Source: a virus | Strand: one strand, 5' to 3' | DNA: 30,617 bases | IMG/VR virus record: IMGVR_UViG_3300042384_000745 | Location: 1-30,617 of that record | Shown here: in pieces, positions 17,800 through 30,357 of the stretch | Layout: each line of letters opens with the position of its first letter | Position numbering within the stretch: the stretch's first letter is position 1 | The notes under the pieces: generated by a model | What the model was told of the DNA's origin: nothing | Databases searched by the model: none | Seen by the model: the letters and a program-made list of their open reading frames with translations, nothing else | Translations under genes and position numbers: made by a program

Positions 17800-18327
17800 C
17801 TATGGCGTGGCACTCAGGCGGATGTAATAGGTGGTGCCATTGATGCTCACCGGGATCGAATGCGTTGACGCCGTGACCGTGGCTGTTGGCGTGGAGTCAA
17901 TTCGCAAACTGTCGCACCGCAAGGAGGATTGGACATCAACGGGCTGCGTTAGCATGATGGGGGCCGCATTAAGGACAGCCAGGGCATCAACCACGATCTT
18001 AACCAGACCAGCGGTCGCCACATCCAGCGACACGCCCGCTCCGCCCATTAGAACACGCTCCGCCGATAAGGCCCCCGATGATGCCAGGACAACAAACGCC
18101 GCCGCCGCGATTGTATCCGCCGTAGACTGGGCGGATGCCGCCGCCGCCGCCGATGCCGCCGCCGCCGCCGTAGCTGCATCAGCTACGGCCTGAGCCTCCA
18201 CCGCGTTTTCTACCGCGCCGCTAACCTGCGACGCCGCCCGCTGGATATTCTCAAAAGCTAGGATGGTGCGGTTGTCCTGCCCAAAGAACCGGCTTAGGGC
18301 TGCGCGGTCAATCTCATATTCGATCAT
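17800..18327 (-). CDS. Ala-rich coiled-coil virion protein in tail-needle position (175 aa)
   Basis: 175 residues. The N-terminus, IDRAALSRFFGQDNRTILAF, continues into a helical ENIQRAASQ. Residues about 40-78 are an almost pure Ala/Ser helix (coding DNA full of GCC repeats at about 18120-18175). A beta-like C-terminal part contains LMGGAGVSLDVATAGLV and THSIPVSINGTTYYIRLSA. It lies directly after the gp10-like gene, where P22 has gp26, the trimeric needle that plugs the tail. A needle role is plausible from position and coiled-coil character, but I do not recognise gp26 sequence. It could instead be a minor tail protein. Confidence 0.6.
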   Translation of the reverse strand: MIEYEIDRAALSRFFGQDNRTILAFENIQRAASQVSGAVENAVEAQAVADAATAAAAASAAAAASAQSTADTIAAAAFVVLASSGALSAERVLMGGAGVSLDVATAGLVKIVVDALAVLNAAPIMLTQPVDVQSSLRCDSLRIDSTPTATVTASTHSIPVSINGTTYYIRLSATP

Positions 18328-27884: not shown

Positions 27885-28331
27885 CTACCCTAGCTCTACC
27901 GTGGTGATTTCGCCGCCGCACTTAACGGTAAGTTGAATCGCCGCCTCGACCGCCCCCCTTGCTGTCGCGCCAGCGACCATCGCGCCCATGGCGAAATTAT
28001 CGCCGCAACCAGATGCGGTGAAGCCAAAAGTCGTATACTCAAAACACTCCTTCCACTTACCCTTGTCCAATGAACGAACGATTTTATCTGGAAAAACAAG
28101 GATAGCGGCAACATCTTCTAGTCGCGGCGCGTTTTCCAAATCGTTCGGACTATTTGCTGTCAAAAACCAATCCATAAGCTCCTGGCAATCATAGCTTGGT
28201 CCACTTGCGCCTAAAAGATAGCCAAATTTGTTTTTTACTACTTTTTCCATAGCGCCCAATCGATGACCTTGCGCGGTGCTGATCAGAGTATCCCCCGCCA
28301 TCATCCCGTCCCTGTATGCGATAATCGTCAT
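27885..28331 (-). CDS. HslV/proteasome-like Ntn peptidase
   Basis: 148 residues. The start MTIIAYRDGMMAGDTLISTA matches the opening of HslV-type Ntn hydrolases. After Met removal, Thr would be residue 1 (nucleophile). Asp13 (AGDT) and Lys29 (GAMEKVV) then fall where HslV has D17 and K33, both shifted by the same four residues. TTFGFTASGCGDNFAMGAMV and GATARGAVEAAIQLTVKCGG match the later helices of the fold. No unfoldase partner is seen. It may process or degrade phage or host proteins. The DNA is more AT-rich than the flanks. AAGGAG is its ribosome site. Confidence 0.8.
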   Translation of the reverse strand: MTIIAYRDGMMAGDTLISTAQGHRLGAMEKVVKNKFGYLLGASGPSYDCQELMDWFLTANSPNDLENAPRLEDVAAILVFPDKIVRSLDKGKWKECFEYTTFGFTASGCGDNFAMGAMVAGATARGAVEAAIQLTVKCGGEITTVELG

Positions 28332-28813
28332 GCCGCCATCTCCTTAGCTTCGAGTAGATCCAGAGCCTCACTGACGCGTCGCACAAAGGCCCTGCGCACC
28401 CACCCCCAATGCCGCTCACCGCCGATTAGGGCCAGAAGTTCTCCCGGCTTAGGCGCAAAGGCCGTGTCACGCCGCAGCCACGCCGCGCAGGCATGTTGGA
28501 CGGCATCTAGGGGGACGTCGCCAAACACCGACAGCCAGGCGCTCCAAACGTTCGCGGCTTCGAACTCGGTCTGCTTGGCCTGGCCATATGGGCCAAACAG
28601 CTTTTCAAGTTCGAAGATCAAGGCCTCCGGCGCAGCCGGTTGCGCAAGCCGCTTGGCCAGATCAAGATATGACCGCAAGGCGGGGATATCCGCCGCCGTC
28701 ATCGTCTCCACCGCTTTGCGAGGAACGGAGCCGATCAAGCGCGAGTGCAGCGCCTGCTCTTCGAGTCTCGCCAATGGTTGGGGTTGCCGCTCGACTACCG
28801 TTAGGGCCGTCAT
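28328..28813 (-). CDS. Putative helicase-loader-like replication protein (lambda P position)
   Basis: 161 residues from ATG 28813, after GGAGG. It is helical, with AWLSVFGDVPLDAVQHACAA and WLRRDTAFAPKPGELLALIG, a pattern found in phage proteins encoded after replication initiators. It directly follows and overlaps (152 nt, another frame) the O-like initiator, as lambda P follows O, so a DnaB-loading role is plausible. No ATPase motif is present, which fits P-type rather than DnaC-type loaders. The function is inferred from order and helical character. It ends coupled to the peptidase gene (ATGA). Confidence 0.6.
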   Translation of the reverse strand: MTALTVVERQPQPLARLEEQALHSRLIGSVPRKAVETMTAADIPALRSYLDLAKRLAQPAAPEALIFELEKLFGPYGQAKQTEFEAANVWSAWLSVFGDVPLDAVQHACAAWLRRDTAFAPKPGELLALIGGERHWGWVRRAFVRRVSEALDLLEAKEMAA

Positions 28814-29546
28814 ATCCGCCTCCAATGATGTTTGATTGATTTACGCCGGGCATGTCCGCGCTTAGGCGGATGTCCCGCAGCTTGATCGCGTCATCCCGAA
28901 TCCACGACCAAGACCGGATCGGCTTGCGGGTTCGCTCTGACCGGGTTCGGACCATGCCGATTGCGGCGATGACCTCCGACCACAGGCACGGCTCCCCGCT
29001 CTGGGGTTCGACCAAGGCCCGCAGGTCCGCCGCGTGTTTGACCCCGGTTGAGGTCTGGTCCAACTGGTCGCCTGCCGCCGCCGTCGCCTCTGCGAGCATC
29101 CTAGCCCAATCGTTCGGATCGCCGGGCGCGCGCGCGTTTATGGTGGTGATAGGTTCTATTAATGGTTCTAATAACGGTTCATTATGCGTCGCAACTGTTG
29201 CGACTGGATTTGGAAAGAGTTGCGACTGGTTATCGCAAGAATTGCGACTGGATTCCGCAGATATTGCGACCTGATCTTGGCCCATTTTGAGCGTAAACAT
29301 GTCGCTTGTCCGCGTACCGTCAGACCGCTTCCGGCTCTCCCGAACAATGATCCCGGCCTCGGTCAACTGCTTAAGGGCATTCCAAACGGTTCGGCTGCTT
29401 AGCTCGGTTTCCTCGGCAATTGTGTCCTGTTTTGGCCAGCACTGAGCATCCTTATTGGCGTAATTAGCCAACGAAAGCAGGACTAGCTTTTCACTTGGGG
29501 AAATGCCGCGAACAGCAAAGGCCCAACTCATAGCCTGAACGCTCAC
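28662..29546 (-). CDS. Replication initiator, lambda O-like, containing the origin
   Basis: 294 residues from GTG 29546, after GGAGGG and coupled (GTGA) to the gene upstream. Residues 1-85 are a winged HTH: VSVQAMSWAFAVRGISPSEK, CWPKQDTIAEETELSSRTVW, NALKQLTEAGIIVRES. Residues about 88-117 are a low-conservation linker whose DNA is four 22-bp repeats. Residues about 120-132 read NEPLLEPLIEPI, coded by three 12-bp repeats. The C-terminal part is helical, then Gly/Asp-rich. An origin inside the linker of the initiator gene is the lambda O arrangement: the N-terminal domain would bind the repeats and the C-terminal part would recruit helicase or loader. The last 152 nt overlap the P-like gene. 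Confidence 0.8.
   Translation of the reverse strand: MSVQAMSWAFAVRGISPSEKLVLLSLANYANKDAQCWPKQDTIAEETELSSRTVWNALKQLTEAGIIVRESRKRSDGTRTSDMFTLKMGQDQVAISAESSRNSCDNQSQLFPNPVATVATHNEPLLEPLIEPITTINARAPGDPNDWARMLAEATAAAGDQLDQTSTGVKHAADLRALVEPQSGEPCLWSEVIAAIGMVRTRSERTRKPIRSWSWIRDDAIKLRDIRLSADMPGVNQSNIIGGGYDGPNGSRAATPTIGETRRAGAALALDRLRSSQSGGDDDGGGYPRLAVIS
29152..29187 (-). repeat. Three AT-rich 12-bp direct repeats (probable unwinding element)
   Basis: Plus-strand units GGTTCTATTAAT, GGTTCTAATAAC and GGTTCATTATGC follow one another with an exact 12-bp period, next to the 22-bp repeats. The AT-rich tail of each unit resembles the 13-mers of bacterial origins and the AT-rich part of the lambda origin. 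In the protein they give the period-4 repeat EPLLEPLIEP. Confidence 0.75.
29188..29285 (-). repeat. Origin iterons: four 22-bp direct repeats
   Basis: TTGCGAC starts at 29198, 29220, 29242 and 29264, an exact 22-bp period. The first three units share TTGCGACTGG; the fourth reads TTGCGACCTG. Reverse copies GTCGCAA (29188-29194) and TCGCAA (29233-29238) form inverted repeats with units 1 and 3, each with a 3-nt gap. Since 22 is not a multiple of three, the encoded residues do not repeat, so selection must act on the DNA. This is the expected form of initiator binding sites in a phage origin. Confidence 0.85.
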
Positions 29547-29848
29547 AGCCCGACCCTCCGCTTGTGGGCCTTTAATGCCCAAAGGACCGTCGTGTGATGG
29601 CGGTTAAAGGCCCTGCCTATCTGGGGAAGGCTCCAGCGCCGGGTTCGCCAACATTCATGCATCGCGTCTTGCCGAACGTGCGCGATCCGCATAGACCGGT
29701 CTCGCCCGATCATGTCCTCGTAATCAAACCCGTATTCTTCCGCCACGCGCTCAATAATGTCGCGCATGGTCTCGCGTGAAAAGAAGCCAATCCTTGCAGA
29801 CGGCGGCGACCATAAGCCGTGGTGCTGAAAGTGCGAAAGCGCCGTCAT
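29543..29848 (-). CDS. Stand-alone DnaA domain IV-like DNA-binding protein
   Basis: 101 residues. Residues about 28-98 match the C-terminal DNA-binding domain of DnaA: MRDIIERVAEEYGFDYEDMI, then RDRSMRIAHVRQDAMHECW, SLPQIGRAFNRHHTTVLWAL. HHTTV corresponds to the DHTTV signature that contacts the DnaA box. No AAA+ domain is present; the protein is only about a fifth of a DnaA. It lies directly upstream of the initiator gene that contains the origin and is coupled to it. It may help at the phage origin, or compete with host DnaA at the chromosomal origin or promoters. The family is clear; the role is inferred. Confidence 0.88.
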   Translation of the reverse strand: MTALSHFQHHGLWSPPSARIGFFSRETMRDIIERVAEEYGFDYEDMIGRDRSMRIAHVRQDAMHECWRTRRWSLPQIGRAFNRHHTTVLWALKAHKRRVGL

Positions 29849-30357
29849 GGTGCTGTCCCGGTTCCGTCTTGAAACGGCAGATAGAAAAACCCGCCCTTGG
29901 CCGGGTCAGCCGCCGTCATAAGTTTGCACCTAGACTTAACGCCAAGCGGCTCAAGCCATTCGGCCAAGATCAGGCTATAGGCCTCCACAGAGTGAGCCAC
30001 GGCGCTTAGGCCATTGCTCTGCTTGACATCGCGCAGCCAGACCTCTTGATTGTCCGAAACGCGCCCGGCTCGTGTCTTGGCAATCTTGTCTTTCGAGGCC
30101 TTCAACTCAATTGCAGCAAAGCGGCCATCAGGCAAGCAGAACACCAGATCGCCAACGCCCGCAATGACGCCAAGCTTTTTCAGCCGGGCCATCTCGCCAT
30201 CGGTGCGATTGCCCTTTTCGTTCGGGACGTGAAAAAAGATCAGGCCTGGATAGGCCAAAAGGGTGTATTTGATGCAGGCCTCTTGCACCGCATCTTCCGG
30301 GCGACCGCGCTTCTTCCTAATGCCGGGGCGCTTGGGGAATGGGGTCATGCCACTCAC
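29845..30357 (-). CDS. VRR-NUC family nuclease
   Basis: 170 residues. It has the VRR-NUC (PD-(D/E)XK-like) layout: GRPEDAVQEACIKYTLLAYP, FFHVPNEKGNRTDGEMARLK, GVGD with Asp70, and the IELK core with Glu84 and Lys86. It would cut or nick DNA, perhaps branched structures, in phage recombination or replication. The GTG at 30357 (coupled to the gene upstream, AGGATT site) is my start; ATG 30348 is the alternative. It overlaps the DnaA-like gene by a few bases. Family confidence is high; the substrate is not known. Confidence 0.88.
   Translation of the reverse strand: MSGMTPFPKRPGIRKKRGRPEDAVQEACIKYTLLAYPGLIFFHVPNEKGNRTDGEMARLKKLGVIAGVGDLVFCLPDGRFAAIELKASKDKIAKTRAGRVSDNQEVWLRDVKQSNGLSAVAHSVEAYSLILAEWLEPLGVKSRCKLMTAADPAKGGFFYLPFQDGTGTAP

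Follow-up and report, generated by a model that had tools for sequence, protein, structure and literature searches.

A candidate replication origin with a lambda-type layout inside the HTH_36 initiator gene of a metagenomic phage

Why should the initiator gene of a metagenomic phage carry, within its own coding sequence, four evenly spaced copies of a short DNA sequence next to an AT-rich repeat? The gene belongs to a window of 30,617 bp, the entire IMG/VR virus record IMGVR_UViG_3300042384_000745, which encodes a P22-like portal and a terminase recognised in Pfam and PHROG profile searches. The same phage is represented by four other contigs with 98.5-99.9% identity, and the initiator gene is identical in all of them. 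A first-pass annotation of the sequence proposed that the repeats constitute a lambda-type replication origin hidden inside the initiator gene. Judging from sequence comparison, the repeat array and the adjacent tract very probably (roughly 0.88) form a phage replication origin, which is embedded in the codons for a predicted disordered linker of the initiator.

The initiator gene (28662..29531, minus strand; 289 aa, likely start ATG at 29531) was characterised using Pfam, PHROG and AlphaFold2. The encoded protein contains an N-terminal winged helix of the HTH_36 family (62 bits against the Pfam cut-off of 25). In PHROG, it has matches to numerous families annotated as replication initiation protein or as O-like, among them phrog_1032, phrog_391 and phrog_270, with E-values down to 3e-24; the proposed location of the repeats inside an HTH initiator gene holds. 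The score against Phage_rep_O (PF04492), the lambda O family, is 17.9 bits, under the curated cut-off of 28.7; lambda O itself scores 123 bits. In the AlphaFold2 model, residues 1-84 form the winged helix, with pLDDT of 85-95 over most of it, the linker residues 85-138 have pLDDT below 50 and are probably disordered, and the C-terminal part is predicted to be helical with low confidence. A fold search with the initiator retrieved generic winged helices only, DnaD among them. The codons of the linker (window 29118-29279) hold both the iterons and the AT-rich tract, and thus the putative origin would be placed where the protein tolerates it.

Directly upstream of the initiator gene is a gene for a 101 aa protein (29543..29848, minus strand) that consists of the C-terminal (domain IV) helix-turn-helix of DnaA alone (Bac_DnaA_C, 60 bits); the window contains no E. 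coli-type DnaA box (TTWTNCACA, 0 matches). The same early gene cluster includes a VRR-NUC nuclease gene (29845..30357, minus strand; Pfam). One near-identical contig, L005, extends 2.3 kb beyond the window end and encodes, on the upstream side, a small HTH protein, weakly Cro-like (P22_Cro, E 0.05), ahead of the nuclease and, in the opposite orientation, an S24-type (cI-like) repressor, giving the gene order small HTH, VRR-NUC nuclease, DnaA-domain-IV-like protein, initiator. With this cI/cro-like pair upstream, the early gene cluster follows, as far as gene content and order indicate, the lambda plan. The gene downstream of the initiator (28328..28825, minus strand; 165 aa) occupies the position of lambda P and has no significant Pfam or PHROG match and no recognisable P- or DnaC-like similarity. 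Between the replication and packaging genes, there is a match to an HslV-family peptidase PHROG (phrog_1040; 27885-28331, minus strand).

The array spans approximately nucleotides 258-343 of the initiator gene. The TTGCGAC units annotated at 29198, 29220, 29242 and 29264 are correct to the base; on the coding strand, the core GTCGCAA starts at 29270, 29248, 29226 and 29204, with a period of exactly 22 bp. In coding order, iterons 1 (29264..29270), 2 (29242..29248) and 3 (29220..29226), all on the minus strand, carry this core in codon phases 0, 1 and 2, respectively, and iteron 4 (29188..29204, minus strand; GTCGCAACAGTTGCGAC), again in phase 0, has perfect 8-bp arms around one base and adjoins the AT-rich tract; the four units encode VAIS, SRNS, QSQL and VATV. 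Across the four copies, 8 of 10 columns are identical at period 22, compared with a maximum of 5 in 3000 codon shuffles and 7 in 3000 permutations of synonymous codons, none of which matches the observed array (0/3000 in each case). The sequence TGCGACTGG occurs exactly three times in the window, always within the array. The small palindromes noted at units 1 and 3, with the units counted upward from 29188, are confirmed (GTCGCAACTGTTGCGAC and TCGCAAGAATTGCGA): iteron 2 in coding order is a palindromic unit, the second half-site of iteron 3 is degenerate, and the four units together show 18 of 24 matches to an inverted partner half-site at a constant offset of 11 bp (p = 0.005). Family-wide, the half-site test gives p <= 0.05 for just 10 of 40 arrays; it was used instead of a dyad test on majority consensus sequences (7/40), which was too blunt. 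A 21-bp GCC-rich repeat at 18097-18180, the sole other strong periodic signal in the genome, is a coding repeat that stays in frame. No turn of the GC skew, a check put forward with the original proposal, is seen at the array; the record ends 1.3 kb away, hence the skew is uninformative.

The tract that follows the iterons (29152..29187, minus strand) is a putative DNA unwinding element, as suggested by its instability and by its conservation in relatives. It comprises the AACC-led 12-mers AACCGTTATTAG, AACCATTAATAG and AACCTATC. All three of the AT-rich repeats described initially are present (29152-29163, 29164-29175 and 29176-29187), the third one being weak (GGTTCATTATGC), with AACC starting on the coding strand at 29179, 29167 and 29155; GAACCNNTNANNGAACC has two matches with at most one mismatch, against 0.05 expected. 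Over 40 bp after the iterons, the A+T content is 70%, compared with 42% for the gene, and only 0.05% of the 35-bp windows of the genome are less stable, the tract not being the one unstable stretch of the genome. The codon register is broken by the 22-bp units only; the 12-mers, with a length that is a multiple of three, remain in frame and encode the peptide EPLLEPLIEPI; a constraint at the DNA level therefore needed its own test.

Homologues of the initiator were gathered in a repeat-blind manner, by protein similarity (phages and plasmids) and by terminase similarity (viral contigs), and were searched for spacings of 16-32 bp. The pre-set check for loss of the linker repeats in homologues found them largely retained: a significant array is located just after the winged helix in 24 of the 27 full-size genes, the remaining three being those of SF6, RcBaka (p 0.06) and Azospirillum. 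The array-bearing relatives come from Escherichia, Vibrio, Pseudomonas, Rhizobium, Rhodobacterales and Corynebacterium, and their arrays consist of 2-7 units whose sequence and period differ between phage groups (e.g., GTGCAGGAGATTCA in SfV, GCAGGAAATGCACC in LESphi3, CCGTGTCTCAAA in a Labrenzia phage and TGACCATGCCGCA in a Tardiphaga plasmid). A search with a Rhodobacterales-type alignment yielded 160 loci, with a significant array in 19 of 24 non-redundant linkers; a scan of genome contigs with a single protein gave no match, and alignment A2 was set aside as a search profile because it was too diverse. Applied to lambda O, the same procedure recovers its annotated iterons. Several individual loci deserve mention. 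In Salmonella phage SF6 (L015, 2486-3118), the winged-helix gene is kept, with a primase/helicase downstream, and neither a significant array nor an AACC pair is detected. In the Tardiphaga plasmid (L092, 3510-4190), an O-like initiator gene in the vicinity of repC contains iterons and three AACC repeats spaced by 12 bp; this region may be an additional origin, derived from a phage. L088 has another, short HTH_36 gene (776-1127) upstream of the iteron-bearing initiator gene.

The iterons change freely among these genes while the repeat that follows them is common to relatives, the GAACC 12-mer being conserved from Corynebacterium to Escherichia and Rhodobacterales. At least two AACC copies within 75 bp past the last iteron are present in 45 of 49 non-redundant HTH_36 genes, all taken from repeat-blind searches, compared with 2.4 expected from codon shuffles; the control GGTT, the reverse complement, is found in 0 of 49, and four of the genes lack the AACC motif. 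The spacing is usually 12-13 bp, and the consensus is G-AACC-[AT]-[GT]-T-[AC]-A (GAACC-W-K-T-M-A). When viral contigs were searched blind with GAACCNNTMANNGAACCNNTMA, an HTH_36 initiator domain was located no more than 400 bp upstream in 52 of 120 among the matches listed; for a scrambled-pattern control, this was the case in 0 of 120 among the matches listed. A generic scan with GAACC(N7)GAACC(N7)GAACC, abandoned for this stricter pattern, hit mostly EP-rich proteins, with 12 of the 120 listed matches at initiators. In the gammaproteobacterial loci L014, L096, L097, L098 and L103, CACTCTTTTGAAC or CACTCTTTAGAAC is located between the first and second AACC; these sequences resemble the boxA antitermination element and are absent from the window. 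No description of the GAACC repeat was found in the literature searched, the coverage of which is incomplete and includes few subscription papers.

This conservation could reflect the peptide rather than the DNA. Under such an interpretation, the iterons still mark the origin, the tract acts by its low melting energy only, and GAACC is the trace of an inherited EPxx linker peptide. We consider this rather unlikely, notwithstanding that 56 of 58 strict 12-bp arrays among the matches listed are in the GAA-CCN frame and that peptide repeats similar to NPVREPVREPV occur in many relatives; some selection on the EPxx repeats at the peptide level is indeed likely. In Rhodobacterales, the AACC copies are spaced by 13 bp; this spacing was tried as proof of a frame shift and discarded because the peptide NPVREPVREPV stays in frame, and codon choice was relied on instead. 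When the tract was compared with the rest of the gene in 36 GC-rich genes, GC3 was 0.42 in the tract versus 0.74 elsewhere; GTA accounts for 80% of the valine codons in the tract versus 5% elsewhere, ATA for 64% versus 6% of the isoleucine codons, and AGA/AGG for 62% versus 9% of the arginine codons, and glutamate before proline is encoded by GAA in 46 of 46 cases in the tract versus 15 of 48 elsewhere. In the tract, GTA exceeds GTT 48 to 5, although GTT is the more common one elsewhere (4:1), which implies more than a push to A+T; similarly, ATA exceeds ATT 18 to 8. The AACC count is 90, compared with 50.9 expected from the peptide and each gene's own codons, an excess that is significant individually in only 6 of the 36 genes, which are related sequences. 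Furthermore, AACC copies occur in other frames, where they encode other peptides (RT, NH, NL), in L088, L067, L093, L013 and SfV. Because synonymous codons are forced in the tract, the codon pattern indicates that the DNA is selected there besides the peptide, which alone would not account for it.

Two further explanations would dispense with an origin altogether. The array might be an operator that autoregulates the initiator operon, a possibility suggested by the combination of a winged helix with palindromic sites and by the potential of intragenic binding to block transcription. This appears very improbable given that the site lies ~260-340 bp into the gene, with no sigma-70-like promoter nearby in the promoter scan, that an operator would not need a conserved low-stability tract with a repeat of its own, and that in lambda this layout has been proven to act as an origin. 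Alternatively, the repeats could have arisen secondarily, either because selection favoured a repetitive peptide in the linker or through tandem duplication in the recent past. Slippage can create tandem repeats in linkers, and the array is the same in the four near-identical contigs, but units in codon phases 0, 1, 2 and 0 that encode different residues contradict this scenario, and distant relatives have arrays of other sequences at the same place, so that we find it scarcely credible.

Under the favoured interpretation, that of an origin within the initiator gene, we infer binding, opening, helicase loading and a reader of the 12-mers. Initiator dimers would bind the four palindromic iterons, spaced by 22 bp, via the winged helix, and the bound dimers would jointly strain the adjacent AT-rich tract so that it opens. 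The initiator, or else a partner that is conserved together with it, might then hold the GAACC 12-mers, exposed as a single strand, in a sequence-specific manner, and the strand held open would be fixed for helicase loading. The analysis locates a candidate origin in a metagenomic phage that is open to testing, and the combination of a winged-helix gene, phased iterons and GAACC 12-mers offers a recipe for finding unmarked origins of phages and prophages. If the 12-mer is read sequence-specifically, the roles of weak DNA and of a recognised sequence in phage unwinding elements become directly testable, natural swaps within one host being available in E. coli (SfV type versus lambda type).

Among the closest known systems, the modules with O-like initiators of SfV, LESphi3, Labrenzia and Rhizobium phages share the HTH_36 initiator, the position of the array and the AACC after it, whereas the sequence, number and spacing of the iterons are phage-specific; no annotated origin is present in the record stretches examined for these phages. 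The plasmid origins RK2 oriV/TrfA and F oriS/RepE also combine iterons with an unwinding element that contains a short tandem repeat. Unlike iteron plasmids of the RK2, F and P1 type, the window has no E. coli-type DnaA box; the phage origin would lie inside a coding sequence, and the RK2 repeat, TAAACnTTnTTTT, is different. TrfA requires the full set of 13-mers in the RK2 unwinding element and binds them on one specific strand (PMC4081077); by analogy, we infer that the GAACC code is read by the initiator.

The lambda origin shares the location within the initiator gene, the four imperfectly palindromic iterons with ~20-bp spacing (PMC7466680), which are inverted repeats (PMC7466680, PMC5043065), the order, with the AT-rich tract on the C-terminal codon side of the iterons, and the position downstream of a cI/cro pair, with a Cro-like protein only weakly recognised here. 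The lambda-type designation is therefore apt with regard to layout, order and operon context and does not extend to the 'exact form' that had been claimed: the iteron spacing is 20/24/23 in lambda and uniformly 22 bp here, the initiator is an HTH_36 protein below the Phage_rep_O cut-off, a P-like loader is not recognised in the downstream gene, and the unwinding motif is another one, with ACAAAAGA or ACAAAAGAC repeated in the tracts of lambda, P22, HK544, SEN22, Bas106 and PhiR30_1 in contrast to GAACC..TMA here. Iteron-like repeats are present in all seven lambda-class O genes that were found with lambda O and read by the same procedure, and none of these genes has two AACC after the repeats (0/7). 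L009 and L613-L617 have unrelated iterons, yet common ACAAAAGAC repeats in the AT-rich tract, in parallel with GAACC in the HTH_36 genes. E. coli hosts both classes, and thus the motif tracks the initiator family, not the host, which suggests that the initiator complex is the probable reader; lambda O binds AT-rich DNA in single-stranded form (PMC7466680). From these sequence patterns, there is perhaps an even chance that each phage initiator family has its own unwinding-element code, GAACC-W-K-T-M-A for HTH_36 and ACAAAAGAC for lambda-class O, read, probably as a single strand, by some conserved portion of the initiator complex. The region as a whole is very likely an origin that combines the lambda-type plan with another initiator family, HTH_36.
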